Shown one piece after another: positions 51,323-57,459 of a stretch of 64,000 bases of DNA. Positions within the stretch are counted from its first letter, which is position 1. Each line of letters begins with the position of its first letter. A program made the position numbers and the translations under genes. This DNA is from Propionivibrio dicarboxylicus (lineage in GTDB: Bacteria; Pseudomonadota; Gammaproteobacteria; Burkholderiales; Rhodocyclaceae), in contig NZ_FNCY01000007.1 of assembly GCF_900099695.1 (NCBI RefSeq), forward strand, positions 62,001 to 126,000, given 5' to 3'. The notes beneath the pieces were generated by a model. The model had not been told where the DNA came from and did not search any database. It worked only from the letters and a program-made list of their open reading frames with translations.

Positions 51323-54300
51323 TTAATCAATCACCTGCATCAAGGCATTAAATCCCTCGAAGAGCCGATCGGCCAGCGACTTCAGTTCGCCCAGATGTGC
51401 CTCGACGTCGCCGCCGCGGCCGTCGCGGTACGCGTCGAGCATCGCCGCGGCGCGCTCATTGGCCGCCTGATGACAGGATTCAAGCTCGGCCAGACGCCCG
51501 TCCAAAGCCGGATGCGCAGCCTGTGTCGCGCTCAGCCACTGCGATAGTCGGCATTTGCCATGATCATGGACCGGCACATCGCCCTGGCCGCCCACATGGG
51601 CTGCCAACGCCGCCACCCAGGCCCGGTGCTCGACGATGGCGAACAGCGGCGGCAGATGTTCGCGCCGCAACGCCCGGACGCCGAGCCACTGCGGATCGGG
51701 ACGCCAGGTCGCGATCCAGCCGGGGATGTCGGCGGCCGGCATCGGCACGGCGATGCCGTAGCCTTGCGCCAGATCGCAGCCGAGCTGCTGCAGGAGGCGC
51801 CCGTGTGCGACCGTCTCGACGCCTTCGGCGATGACCTGTTTGCGGAACGCGCCGGCCATGCTGATCATGCCTTCGAGGATGGTCAGATCGTCGGGGTCCT
51901 CGAGCATGTCGCGGACAAAGCTCTGGTCGATCTTGAGCTGATTGACCGACAGGCGCTTGAGATAGCTCAGCGAGGAATAGCCGGTGCCGAAATCGTCGAG
52001 CGAGAAATTCACCCCGAATTCCTGGCACTCGGCGATGATCCGGCACACGCCGGCCATGTCCTCGAGCGCGCTGGTCTCGAGGATCTCGATCTCGAGTCGC
52101 TCGGGAACGACATCGGGATACTCGGCGAGAATGGCGCGCAGGCACTGCGCGAAGTCGCGCTGCTGTAACTGGCGCGCACCGACGTTCACGCTGGCCGCCA
52201 GTTCGACGCCCCCGGCCTGCCATGCCTGCAGTTGCGCGAGCGCCGAGCGGATCACCCACTCACCCAGTTCGATCGCCAGCGGCTGGTTCTCGATCACCGG
52301 CAGAAACTGGCCCGGCGGCACGAGACCGCGCGACGGATGCCGCCAGCGGATCAGCGCCTCGACACCGACGACGGCGCCGCTGCTCATGCTGACTTTCGGC
52401 TGGTAATAGAGCACGAAATCGCCGGCGGCGAGGCCCCGGCGCACTTCCTCGATGCTTTCGTGGATATCGCGGACGCTGCGGTGCAGGTCCTGGTCGAAGA
52501 TGTGATAGCGGTTCTTGCCCAGCAGTTTCGACTGGTACATGGCCTGGTCGGCCTGCCGCATCAACTGATCGGCATTGACCTCCTCGGCCTGCGGGTAGAA
52601 GGTGACGCCGAGACTGGCGGTCACTTGCAGGACGATGCCATCGACAGTGTGCGCCTGGGCGGCGGCATCGAGCAGCCGGTTGAGCAAGGGCACGCAATCA
52701 GCATTGTCACCAAGGTCCGAGATGACCGCGACAAACTCGTCGCCGCCGATGCGGGCAAGCGTATCGACATCGCGCAGGGTCTGGCGCATGCGGCTCGACA
52801 AGGCGACGAGCAGGTCGTCGCCGACCTTGTGGCCGTAGGTGTCATTGACCGCCTTGAAGCCGTCCAGATCGAGACAGACGACGGCGACGCGCCGCTTGTG
52901 CCGGTTCGCCTGCGACAGCGCCTGCTGCAGGCGGTCGGCGAGCAGCGCCCGGTTCGGCAGCGTCGTCAGCAGATCGTAATGCGCCATCTGCCGCAGCTGT
53001 TCCTCGTGCTCCTTCATCGGCGTGATGTCGGTGAACATCGCAACGTAATGCAGCGTCTTGCCACTGTCATCGCGCACGGCGCTGATCGTCAGGAGTTCCG
53101 GATACAACTCGCCGTTCTTGCGCCGATTCCAGATTTCGCCGGACCAGAACCCCGCCTCGATGAGATCGCGCCACATCGCCGCATAGAATTCGGGCGGATG
53201 ATGTTCGGATTTTATGATGCGCGGATTCTTCCCGAGCGCTTCCTCGCGGCGGTAACCGGTGATGCGCGTGAAGGCCTCGTTGACGTCGATGATCGTGCCG
53301 TCGGCGGCGGTGATCGTGATGCCCTCGCGGGCGTGCGAGAAGACGCTGGCGGCGAGCTGCAACTGCTGCTCGCTCTGCTTGCGCGCATCGATATCGGCGA
53401 TAACGCCGACCAGCCCCTGGCGTACGTTGTTGGCATCGACCAGGCTGCGGCCGTTGAGATGCCCCCAGAATTGCGATCCGTCCTGGCGCCAGTAGAGGCG
53501 ATCGGTATCGACCGCGGTGATCTCGCTGGCCAGCAGCTTGAGCATGCGCATGCGTCCGACCTCTCGCTCGCTCGGATGGATGAGATCGACATATTGGCAC
53601 CCGACCAGCTCCTCGTCGGGATAGCCGAACATCTCGTGCATGCGCCGGTTGGCGAGGGTGATGCAGCCGTCGAGATCGACGAGAAAAATCCCCACGCTCG
53701 AGGTGTCGAGAATCTGGCGCAGCAGCGTCTTGCGCTGGCCGAGACTCTGCAGCAACGTGTTGAAGCCGGTCACCAGCTGGCCGATTTCGTCGTCGCGCAC
53801 CACCGGCAGCGGCTGCTCCTCGCCCGCCGCCGGCGAGAAGCTCTGCAAGGCCTCGGTCGCCTCGATCAGCGGCGCCACCTGGCGTTTGAGGAAGATCCAG
53901 ATGAGCGAGCCGGCCAGCAGCGTCAGGAACATCGTCGCCATGACGATCCGCCGTTCCATCTCGCGGATCGGCGAGAAGGCCTCGTCGGTCGGCAGCAGGG
54001 CGGCCACATACCAGCCGGCAGCGGGAATCCGCTTCGCCGACGCCAGCATTTCGCGACCATGCTGATTGACGGTGACGCCAAAGCCTTCGTAGCCTTCGAT
54101 AAAGCGGTCGATCAGGGCGATGTGTCCCGGCGGCGGCAACGCCTCCATGACGCGGCTCTTGTCGGTCGCCGTCGCGACCAGGCGCAGGCGCGGCACGACC
54201 AGCAGATAGCCTCCGGTGCGACCGTATTGCGCCGTCGTGATCTGGTCGATGAAATTGTCTTTTTCCATGTTGACCACGCCGGCCAGCATGCCGGTAATCT

Positions 54301-54847
54301 TGCCGTCCGGGTCATGGATCGGCACGGCGACGACGATCACCGGCACCTTGAGCGTCCGGCCGACGATCGGGTCGCCGATCACCGGACGTCCTTCGCGCAA
54401 GGCGATGCGCGTGTATTCGCGATCGCTGTAATCGACGCCGACCCGCTCGGGTGCGCGCGGCACCGCGGCGATGGCAACGCCGTCGACACCGGTCGCGAAG
54501 GTGCCGCCGTTGAATTTGGTCTCGATATCCTTCCAGCGGTCGAGATGCGCCTGCATCGCCGCCGGCCCGTCGTGCATCGCGGCCGAGGCCTGGTGCGCCA
54601 CTTCCTCCAGCGCTGTCACCCGGTCCTCGAATTCGTGATTGACCCGGTCGGCCACCAGCGTCACCGTCGAAAACTGCTGTTCGCCGAGCAGACGCACCAT
54701 GTCGCCGCGCAGATAGTGGCTGGCATAGAAGGTGAGCGACCAGATCCCGGCAACGAAGATCGCCAGCGTCACGACGATCGTCTTGGTACGCAGCGAACGC
54801 CACGACCGCCTCAACACGTCAAGCACACGGGATACGCCGGAAGACAT
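51323..54847 (-). CDS. Cache-HAMP-PAS-PAS-GGDEF-EAL-CZB c-di-GMP signalling protein
   Basis: 1174 residues from ATG 54847, with AGAGG eight bases upstream. Order: transmembrane helix, double-Cache sensor (YSDREYTRIALREGRPVIGDP), second helix near 310, HAMP, two PAS domains (SVGIFLVDLDGCITLANRRM and EGITITAADGTIIDVNEAFT), GGDEF at about 698-702 (ARIGGDEFVAVI), EAL at about 830 (VGVEALIRWRHPSRG) with DDFGTGYSSLSYLKRL, and a C-terminal zinc-binding CZB-like domain (EHRAW, DHGKCRLSQWL). Both catalytic motifs are intact, so synthesis and breakdown of c-di-GMP are both possible. One of the usual CZB histidines seems absent. Confidence 0.92.
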   Translation of the reverse strand: MSSGVSRVLDVLRRSWRSLRTKTIVVTLAIFVAGIWSLTFYASHYLRGDMVRLLGEQQFSTVTLVADRVNHEFEDRVTALEEVAHQASAAMHDGPAAMQAHLDRWKDIETKFNGGTFATGVDGVAIAAVPRAPERVGVDYSDREYTRIALREGRPVIGDPIVGRTLKVPVIVVAVPIHDPDGKITGMLAGVVNMEKDNFIDQITTAQYGRTGGYLLVVPRLRLVATATDKSRVMEALPPPGHIALIDRFIEGYEGFGVTVNQHGREMLASAKRIPAAGWYVAALLPTDEAFSPIREMERRIVMATMFLTLLAGSLIWIFLKRQVAPLIEATEALQSFSPAAGEEQPLPVVRDDEIGQLVTGFNTLLQSLGQRKTLLRQILDTSSVGIFLVDLDGCITLANRRMHEMFGYPDEELVGCQYVDLIHPSEREVGRMRMLKLLASEITAVDTDRLYWRQDGSQFWGHLNGRSLVDANNVRQGLVGVIADIDARKQSEQQLQLAASVFSHAREGITITAADGTIIDVNEAFTRITGYRREEALGKNPRIIKSEHHPPEFYAAMWRDLIEAGFWSGEIWNRRKNGELYPELLTISAVRDDSGKTLHYVAMFTDITPMKEHEEQLRQMAHYDLLTTLPNRALLADRLQQALSQANRHKRRVAVVCLDLDGFKAVNDTYGHKVGDDLLVALSSRMRQTLRDVDTLARIGGDEFVAVISDLGDNADCVPLLNRLLDAAAQAHTVDGIVLQVTASLGVTFYPQAEEVNADQLMRQADQAMYQSKLLGKNRYHIFDQDLHRSVRDIHESIEEVRRGLAAGDFVLYYQPKVSMSSGAVVGVEALIRWRHPSRGLVPPGQFLPVIENQPLAIELGEWVIRSALAQLQAWQAGGVELAASVNVGARQLQQRDFAQCLRAILAEYPDVVPERLEIEILETSALEDMAGVCRIIAECQEFGVNFSLDDFGTGYSSLSYLKRLSVNQLKIDQSFVRDMLEDPDDLTILEGMISMAGAFRKQVIAEGVETVAHGRLLQQLGCDLAQGYGIAVPMPAADIPGWIATWRPDPQWLGVRALRREHLPPLFAIVEHRAWVAALAAHVGGQGDVPVHDHGKCRLSQWLSATQAAHPALDGRLAELESCHQAANERAAAMLDAYRDGRGGDVEAHLGELKSLADRLFEGFNALMQVID

Positions 54848-54973
54848 CGCCACGCCTCTCACTCATTTGCCCTCGATAGATCGCGCCTGCCGCTCGCAGG
54901 CAGTCGATCGCCATAGGCGCATTGTCGCACTCCCCCCCACCTCCCGCGCAAGCCATCGCGGCGGCAAGCAGCG

Positions 54974-55043: not shown

Positions 55044-56612
55044 TTAGAAACCAGCGCCCTTGATCGACTTCAGGCCCTTGTAGATGGCCTTGGCACCGAG
55101 TTGCTCCTCGATGCGGATCAGCTGGTTGTACTTGCAGATACGATCGGTGCGCGACAGCGAGCCGGTCTTGATCTGGCCGGCGCCGGTACCGACGGCGAGG
55201 TCGGCAATGAACGAGTCCTCGGTTTCGCCCGAACGGTGCGACGAGATCACGCCGTAACCGGCCTTCTGCGCCAGCTTGATGGCATCCAGCGTCTCGGTCA
55301 CGGTGCCGATCTGGTTGACCTTGATCAGGATCGAATTGGCGGCGCCCATGTCGATACCCTTCTTCAGGCGGCCCGGGTTGGTGACGAAGAAGTCGTCGCC
55401 GACGATCTGCACCTTCTTGCCGAGCGCCTGCGTGAACTTGACGTAGCCTTCCCAGTCGTTCTGGTCGAGGCCGTCCTCGATCGAGACGATCGGGTACTTC
55501 TGGCACCACTCTTCGTACTTGGCGATCATTTCGTCGGCCGTGAACAGCTTCTCGGGGTTCGACTTCCAGAACTTGTAGCCCTGGCGGCCGCCCTCGTCGA
55601 ACAGCTCCGACGACGCGCAGTCGAGCGCGATGGCGATCTGCTTGCCCGCCTTGTAGCCGGCGGCGTCGATCGCCTTCATGATGACTTCGAGCGCCTCGTC
55701 GTTCGAGAGGTTCGGCGCGAAGCCGCCTTCGTCACCGACGGCGGTCACGTGGCCGCCCTTCTTGAGGATGCTCTTGAGCGCGTGGAAGATTTCGGTGATC
55801 CACTGCAGACCCTGCGAGAAGGTCTTGGCGCCCACCGGCATGATCATGAATTCCTGGAAGTCGATCAGGTTGTCGGCATGCTTGCCACCGTTGATGATGT
55901 TGGCCATCGGCGTCGGCAGCACGAATTCCTTGTTCTTGTGCAGCTTGGCGATGTACTTCCACAGCGGCATGCCACTGACATTGGCGGCAGCGACGGTGAT
56001 CGCCATCGACGCGCCGAGCAGCGCGTTGGCGCCGAGCTTCGCCTTGTTCGAGGTGCCGTCGAGCGCGATCATCGCGTCGTCGAGTTCACGCTGGTTGAGC
56101 GGATTCTTGCCCTTGAGCAGCTTGGCGATCGGGCCATTGACGGCCTCGACGGCCTTGAGCACGCCCTTGCCGAGGTAGACTTTCTTGTTGCCGTCGCGCA
56201 GTTCGCAAGCTTCGAATTCGCCGGTCGAGGCACCCGACGGCACCGCGGCACGCGCGAGGAAACCGTTGCTCAGCACGATATCGACTTCGACGGTCGGATT
56301 GCCGCGCGAGTCGAGGATCTGACGACCGACCACCTTGCTGATCTTGACGAACGCCGGCACGACTTTCTTGGCGGCAACAACCTTCTTGGCAACGGCCTTC
56401 TTGGCGACAACTTTCTTGGCGGCAACAACCTTCTTCGCAACGGCGGCCTTCTTCGGCGCGGCCACCTTCTTCACGGCAGCGGTCTTCTTCGCCGGCGCGG
56501 CCTTCTTGGCGGCGGCGACGGTCTTCACGGCTGCGGCCTTCTTGGCAGCAGCGGCGGGTTTTTTGGCAGGAGCGACTTTCTTAGCGGGTGCTGCTTTAAC
56601 GACCTTGGCCAT
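55044..56612 (-). CDS. eno: Enolase with histone-H1-like lysine-rich N-terminal extension
   Basis: 522 residues against about 430 in ordinary enolases. Residues 1-86 consist almost only of Ala, Lys, Val and Pro, with 27 lysines, no acidic residue and no arginine. Twelve KK pairs occur at near six-residue spacing. The core starts with [20 protein letters not shown]. Its active site is complete: [77 protein letters not shown] and the lysine of IKTGSLSR. It converts 2-phosphoglycerate to phosphoenolpyruvate. A GTG inside the tail end of the extension could give a core-only form but has no ribosome-binding site. It is downstream of crcB and DUF190. Confidence 0.95.
56355..56612 (-). repeat. KK-dyad repeat region encoding the enolase extension
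   Basis: About 86 codons built from variants of an Ala/Val-Ala-Lys-Lys unit with a period of roughly 18 bases. Within it a 26-base stretch is repeated exactly at 56362-56387 and 56410-56435, a 48-base period, so at least part grew by tandem duplication. The remaining units differ at third positions and by Val/Ala/Pro exchange, which indicates older, selected repeats. Confidence 0.8.
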
Positions 56613-56668: not shown

Positions 56669-56674
56669 AGTATA
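56669..56674 (-). promoter_or_regulatory. Possible -10 element of eno
   Basis: On the minus strand the AT-rich 82-base spacer between DUF190 and eno contains TATACT (complement of 56669-56674), about 57 bases before the eno ATG. No good -35 hexamer is at the right distance. eno may thus have its own promoter in addition to read-through from crcB. Confidence 0.35.
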
Positions 56675-56693: not shown

Positions 56694-57053
56694 CTAATGC
56701 TTGCCCGATTCCTTCGACGTGCCATCGTCCTTTTCATCGGCATTTATGACACCGAACTCGACCGGGACGCGCACATAGAAAACGCGGATGCCGGCGTCAC
56801 GCACCAGCGCCATCATCGCTTCGGCCTCCTTCGCATCGACGATGAACTCGACCTCGATCGCCGTCGACCCGGCCAACTCGAAGAACTGGCTTTCGTGCAG
56901 CACATGATGCCGGCCGAAGCCGCCAATGGCGCGAAACGCGGAACCGCCGCCGATACCGATGGCATTGGCCTGCTCGAGCAGCCATTCCCAGAGAAGCACG
57001 CCGTGATGACGCCGTTTTTCATCGAGATAAAGCCTGAGATATTCACCTGTCAT
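56694..57053 (-). CDS. DUF190 protein (PII-like fold)
   Basis: 119 residues from ATG 57053, with GGGAG six bases upstream. TGEYLRLYLDEKRRHHGVLLWEW and AIGIGGGSAFRAIGGFGRHH, with the later VEFIVDAKEAEAMMALV, are the conserved blocks of DUF190, whose solved members have a PII/CutA-like trimeric fold. The gene regularly accompanies crcB. It starts 20 bases after the crcB stop. A role in regulating or assisting fluoride export is assumed from association only. The last residues (ADEKDDGTSKESGKH) form a charged tail. Confidence 0.88.
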   Translation of the reverse strand: MTGEYLRLYLDEKRRHHGVLLWEWLLEQANAIGIGGGSAFRAIGGFGRHHVLHESQFFELAGSTAIEVEFIVDAKEAEAMMALVRDAGIRVFYVRVPVEFGVINADEKDDGTSKESGKH

Positions 57054-57072
57054 CACACGCTCCCGTTCCGGA

Positions 57073-57459
57073 TCATAGGTTCTTGAATAGCGACACCGTG
57101 CCGATGCCGGCGAAGGTCATGGCGATCGAGCCGACGACGTGCACGGCGATGGCGCCGAAGGCCCAGACCATCCGACCTTGCTGCAGCAACAGGGTCACCT
57201 CGGCCGAGAAGGTCGAGAAGGTCGTCAATCCGCCGCAAAAACCGGTAATCAGCAGCAGGCGCCATTCCGGCGAAATCGCGGCAAAGGTCGCGAAGAAGGC
57301 GATGGCGACGCCGATGACATAGGCACCGATCAGGTTGGCCGCCAGCGTCCCTGGCGGCACCGACGGGAACATGCTGTTGAGCTTGTTGCCCAGGTACCAG
57401 CGCAGGAGCGCGCCGAGCGCCGATCCGACGGCAATCGCCGCCACCGATTTCCACATCAT
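57073..57459 (-). CDS. crcB: Fluoride ion exporter CrcB/Fluc
   Basis: 128 residues, four transmembrane helices, as expected for the dual-topology Fluc channels. [33 protein letters not shown] with the conserved Asn, and [15 protein letters not shown] with the Phe-box and sodium-site residues are all present. Two adjacent ATGs (57459 and 57456) are possible starts; GAGG lies four and seven bases away, so the second is perhaps better spaced. It passively exports fluoride through the inner membrane. I looked upstream for a fluoride riboswitch pattern and saw none. Confidence 0.94.

Follow-up and report, generated by a model that had tools for sequence, protein, structure and literature searches.

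The window, a 64,000-nucleotide stretch, carries on its minus strand at 55044..56612 a 522 amino acid open reading frame that begins with ATG, runs stop-free in a single frame and joins a lysine-rich N-terminal tail to an enolase core. The core (residues 90-522; 55044..56345, minus strand) contains both enolase domains (Pfam: PF03952, Enolase_N; PF00113, Enolase_C), and the protein scores 639.5 bits against the equivalog model TIGR01060 (cut-off 300), which predicts enolase activity. The catalytic Glu and Lys and the metal ligands are all found in an alignment to PDB 6bfy examined by eye, with the roles of these positions being those that we take to hold in E. coli enolase. Among solved structures, enolase 1iyx is the best match by sequence. 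An earlier note, made from the letters of this DNA, had described a single frame joining a lysine-rich tail of about 86 residues to a complete enolase with all catalytic residues, and the frame, the residue counts, the KK pairs and the complete core are all reproduced here.

The tail has a length of 86-89 residues (residues 1-89 at the most; 56346..56612, minus strand). Residues 1-86 consist exclusively of K, A, V, P and T plus the starting Met, with 27 lysines, no Asp, Glu or Arg, and 12 KK pairs whose spacings are, in order, 6, 7, 12, 6, 6, 6, 6, 6, 5, 5 and 6. Shuffles of the same residues give a mean of 8.0 KK pairs (P = 0.038), a modest excess, and the striking part of the tail is its composition and spacing rather than the number of pairs. 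The tail is predicted to be disordered: in an AlphaFold2 model built on a 19-sequence alignment, pLDDT is mostly above 70 in the core and below 50 (about 30) in residues 1-85. When the tail alone (86 residues) was compared with Pfam at E-values up to 1, no family was matched, low-complexity sequence of this kind scoring poorly. Any kinship to H1, AlgP or PhaF is therefore one of resemblance only; the H1- and AlgP-like character suggested in the earlier note holds for the make-up of the tail and not for family membership.

Upstream of the enolase and on the same strand are genes for a DUF190 protein (56694..57056; Pfam: PF02641), a CrcB/Fluc fluoride exporter (57073..57459), an acyl-CoA ligase and a UvrD-like helicase. 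A −10-like hexamer, TATACT (56669..56674, minus strand), lies 56 bases upstream of the enolase ATG. Downstream, also on the minus strand, is a 1179 amino acid dCache/PAS/GGDEF/EAL protein (51323-54862), with a weak, sub-cut-off match to a CZB-like zinc-binding domain at its C-terminus.

The tailed enolase is present in 20 of the 28 genomes of the genus (84-100% identity over the match; the copy in G025 is split across two contigs) and in 13 of the 17 with at least 90% completeness and at most 5% contamination. It was not found in the other eight (G002, G007, G016, G017, G018, G019, G022, G023), among which G007, G018, G019 and G023 are less than 90% complete. The assignment of this set to Accumulibacter rests on two named relatives, L034 and L035 (Accumulibacter sp.; 87% identical in the best segment), the core of L035 being identical to that of G021. 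The 21 distinct loci compared are those of the 20 genus genomes, with G021 represented by its twin L035, together with L034. All 21 have an in-frame N-terminal extension of 26-105 amino acids, and the net tail charge is +3 to +33 in 20 of them. Since independent genomes of the genus carry in-frame tails of like kind, an assembly error joining two frames, which the earlier note had considered, is unlikely. The exception in charge, L034 (5965-7350, plus strand; Accumulibacter SCELSE-3), has a 28 amino acid extension with six acidic residues and a net charge of −1, and no adjacent crcB; it offers a natural test case of tail loss. Another locus (L125:649-2700), holding the tailed enolase of G010, lies near phage-like ORFs (terminase small subunit, HNH; by eye).

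Several candidates were rejected as tailed enolases. The long frames in G018 and G022 (574 and 578 amino acids) reflect an upstream reading frame with no KK tail, that in G023 contains a stop and its enolase starts at an ordinary Met, and the early-starting matches in G549 and G029 have no KK tail. Beyond the genus, the best other core match among those listed has 60% identity in 300 order-level genomes (this one included; 298 with a match at the cut-off used) and 62% in 200 phylum-level genomes (this one included, with some overlap; 192 with a match). In this survey of enolases with lysine-rich N-termini, of the kind that the earlier note proposed, there is no KK tail and no closer core among the matches listed for the order- and phylum-level sets. 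The order-level set includes eight further members of this family, and none of the matches listed for them is closer.

The comparison adds features that go beyond the earlier note: the tailed enolase is an extra copy obtained by horizontal transfer, strongly biased in its codon usage and neighboured by crcB and DUF190, and there is a second, ordinary enolase. Besides these two full enolases, the host genome contains a short fragment with a stop in it. The native enolase is 55% identical to the tailed core. By eye, its gene follows those for CTP synthase and KDO-8P synthase and is itself followed by a short FtsB-like ORF, an arrangement that we take to be the usual housekeeping place of enolase. 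A native-type enolase accompanies the tailed one in 18 of the 20 genomes and was not found in G001 (96% complete) and G021 (92% complete). The tailed core is 81% identical to L036 (Candidatus Fibrimonadaceae) and 77% to L037 (labelled Fibrobacter succinogenes). In a quick, midpoint-rooted tree of 68 rows, the 20 Accumulibacter tailed rows form one group (SH-aLRT 99) nested with L036 and L037 in a group of 22 rows (SH-aLRT 100), with Spirochaetota rows adjoining, while five native Accumulibacter enolases cluster with rows of their own order. Judged by this identity and tree placement, the tailed core is foreign to Accumulibacter. Fibrobacterota was rejected as a settled donor, only L036 and L037 being close; seven other Fibrobacterota rows are placed elsewhere in the tree, and of the other Fibrobacterota enolases found, most have 52-65% identity or are much further removed. 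The other long ORFs on the L037 contig look un-Fibrobacter-like by eye, and the contig is possibly misbinned, a further reason not to settle on that phylum as the donor. L036 has no tail, its protein beginning MAKIKN, so that Accumulibacter, or its immediate forerunner, is where the tail probably arose.

Which of the two copies is the major one? The tailed core has a lower effective number of codons (ENC) and a higher codon adaptation index (CAI) than the native enolase in all 17 genomes compared, the tailed genomes outside this set being G025 (split copy) and G001 and G021 (native enolase not found). In this genome, ENC is 27.7 for the tailed and 44.0 for the native copy, and CAI is 0.90 and 0.70, respectively. 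The tailed enolase is thereby level with a fragment of EF-Tu (ENC 30.2, CAI 0.88) and more biased than six of its window neighbours (ENC 34.6-41.8). For all 17 genomes CAI was computed against a single reference, the mechanically called ORFs of this genome's ribosomal cluster, in which EF-Tu and the ribosomal genes were recognized by eye; ENC is reference-free. In each of the 17 genomes the tailed copy also exceeds the native one in GC3 (here 0.89 against 0.71), which alone lowers ENC; CrcB, with a GC3 of 0.867, still has an ENC of 34.6. Such codon usage suggests that it is the tailed enolase that is abundant and highly expressed. In the parts available to us, that of PMC12604563 among them, published Accumulibacter omics refer to "enolase" without telling the copies apart.

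We propose that an ancestor of most present Accumulibacter gained its second enolase from a distantly related bacterium, and that this copy became the highly expressed one, as its codon usage would imply, with the native gene kept in most genomes. Comparison shows a tail that drifts in length through gain and loss of repeats and retains its positive charge in almost every lineage. Its most likely role is that of a multivalent electrostatic tether: with enolases being dimers or octamers, each oligomer would carry several flexible, lysine-rich tails, which could bind a polyanion with avidity. Accumulibacter, a key organism in wastewater biological phosphorus removal, is the model polyphosphate-accumulating organism and stores polyphosphate, PHA and glycogen; with polyphosphate and PHA stored in the host genus, tethering is plausible. 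The storage polymers are covered in part in PMC12604563. The earlier note had suggested that the tail anchors the enzyme; comparison supports a tail that is translated and kept, while the anchoring itself we infer, and we judge the chances that the tail is a polyanion tether of some kind to be evenly balanced.

The polyphosphate granule is the leading candidate partner, where the PEP-forming step would sit beside a store that is degraded and rebuilt in each feast-famine cycle. AlgP, whose tail is made of KPAA repeats, associates with polyphosphate granules and requires its tail for granule spacing (PMC9239181, in the part available), and in YihI and Rnr polyphosphate is bound through disordered regions rich in lysine (PMC12345225, likewise in part). 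These precedents, together with Accumulibacter storage, make polyphosphate the most interesting candidate, though as the particular partner we regard it as possible rather than probable. Several points count against it. Acidic residues played a part in binding by YihI as well (PMC12345225, same part), and the window tail has none; the tail of L035 has just three lysines in 26 amino acids, and such lysine-poor tails weigh against a tether, as do the eight of 28 genus genomes that have no detected tailed gene. The sensitivity of enolase to fluoride is phosphate-dependent. A fuller and still more tentative proposal is that the foreign enolase with its H1-like tail is the major enolase and an enzyme of the polyphosphate granule, or of the granule-nucleoid interface, linking PEP formation, polyphosphate turnover and possibly this fluoride sensitivity.

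The nearest alternative to polyphosphate, itself a form of polyanion tether, is that DNA or RNA is what the tail binds, in the manner of H1-like, AlgP and PhaF tails, polyphosphate being irrelevant. The host genome encodes a 264 amino acid, Lys/Ala-rich H1-like protein (L211:1919-2713, minus strand; G000:C23, about 79.4-80.2 kb; PF07382, HC2; NF038053, hist_H1_lk_Burk) with similar KKAVAKK repeats, which makes a DNA role nearly as likely as polyphosphate. PF07382 matches occur in 13 of the 28 genus genomes (E-values up to 0.001), five of them above the cut-off. The tails of AlgP and PhaF are also reported to bind DNA (PMC9239181, in the part available). Against a nucleoid or RNA partner stands only that the tail alone matches no H1 family, and we consider it unlikely but close at hand. 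We rejected the H1-like gene as a source from which tail and leader were captured: the leaders are unlike by eye, and common Lys/Ala/Val repeats would by themselves yield the short stretches of DNA similarity (e.g., 30 bp at 90%).

The main rival to a tether is that crcB, DUF190 and eno form a unit for the fluoride-exposed cell, with a spare enolase whose tail is incidental or stabilizes the enzyme. The three genes are intact on one strand in 12 of the 20 tailed genomes (G000, G001, G003, G004, G005, G006, G009, G011, G013, G014, G026, G027), probably split by contig ends in G012, and reduced in G025 to a crcB near eno with no DUF190 detected. No crcB was found beside eno in G008, G010, G015, G021 and G024 (in G024 the eno contig is just 3.1 kb and crcB lies well inside another contig), and none was found in G020, where the contig is 4 kb. 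Enolase is a fluoride target, and the Enterobacter cloacae FRM fluoride operon contains an extra enolase (PMC5533749, in part). The likeness to that operon is an extra enolase near crcB, here on the same strand; it differs from the window, going by the same part of that source, in that DUF190 and the tail are found here and that the seven window proteins scanned include no pyrophosphatase or phosphoglycerate mutase. A search for fluoride riboswitches gave none in 12001 bases of the window (E-values up to 1) or in 11 related loci (gathering cut-off). The linkage is also loose, with crcB in 17 of the 20 genomes with a tailed enolase and in five of the eight without. In three of the latter (G016, G017, G022) crcB directly adjoins UvrD, so that uvrD-crcB may be the older arrangement, which enolase and DUF190 joined afterwards. 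The four loci outside the main 16-row Accumulibacter group (L015, L016, L017, L035) were not seen beside crcB, and the fluoride linkage may therefore be secondary. A TATA[ACG]T hexamer lies at a similar position in 18 of 21 loci (by eye), including loci without an adjacent crcB, which points to a promoter of eno's own, and strong codon bias ill suits a spare enzyme. Overall we think this explanation unlikely.

Less likely again is a neutral or nearly neutral tail, a slippage-prone N-terminal segment that is tolerated and has no specific partner. Tail length changes fast (L020 and L022 have near-identical cores and tails of 49 and 38 amino acids), the tail DNA consists of imperfect tandem repeats, and L034 has lost the charge. 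Differences involving lysine account for 18 of the 79 between paired tails (23%), near the 28% expected from random single mutations, so that lysine itself does not look clearly protected. Yet acidic changes fall short of expectation (4 of 79, or 5%, against 13%), and the charge is positive in 20 of 21 loci; excluding L034, the other 20 hold 280 K, 1 R and 8 D/E in 1116 tail residues. It is thus a positive, acid-free composition that appears to be kept rather than each lysine. For seven tail pairs pN/pS is 0.11, 0.17, 0.26, 0.34, 0.36, 0.30 and 0.32 (pooled 0.29), values from codons paired through the protein alignment, which lowers pN and favours K-K matches; the L006 extension (111 amino acids from an upstream ATG) was cut to 72 for this set. 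Absence of the tail from the mature protein through an internal start at the core, also raised in the earlier note, is very improbable: this genome has a GTG five codons upstream of the joint, but 12 of the 21 loci have no ATG, GTG or TTG from −15 to +13 codons of it, the leader before the tail ATG and that ATG itself are conserved across loci, and tail pN/pS is low.

If the principal enolase is anchored to polyphosphate granules or the nucleoid, carbon metabolism and the polyphosphate store would be spatially linked by the enzyme itself, and the tail would be a genetically encoded cationic tag for testing recruitment of proteins to polyphosphate. Even with a DNA or RNA tether, or none, metabolic models and omics of Accumulibacter should separate the two enolases. 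The earlier note knew of no described enolase of this architecture, and in agreement with it we found no description, among open-licence PMC papers, of a kept polycationic-tailed enolase as an extra, foreign and probably major copy; the available parts of PMC5533749, PMC9239181, PMC12345225, PMC12604563, PMC12766714 and PMC7986553 describe none.

Finally, we compare the protein with the known systems that it resembles. With HC2 (PF07382) and hist_H1_lk_Burk (NF038053) the tail shares a Lys/Ala/Val/Pro make-up and KK repeats, but it sits on an enzyme and alone matches no family (no PF07382 match at E-values up to 1). With AlgP and PhaF of Pseudomonas it shares disordered, Lys/Ala/Pro-rich repeats on a folded part (PMC9239181, in the part available); here, however, the tail is N-terminal, has KK pairs instead of regular KPAA repeats and is carried by a glycolytic enzyme, and the whole protein matches enolase-superfamily Pfam models only. 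With the bacterial enolases of TIGR01060 the protein shares a complete core, a score above the equivalog cut-off and the catalytic positions, and it differs from them in its cationic, predicted disordered N-terminal tail and in being an extra, foreign copy in Accumulibacter.
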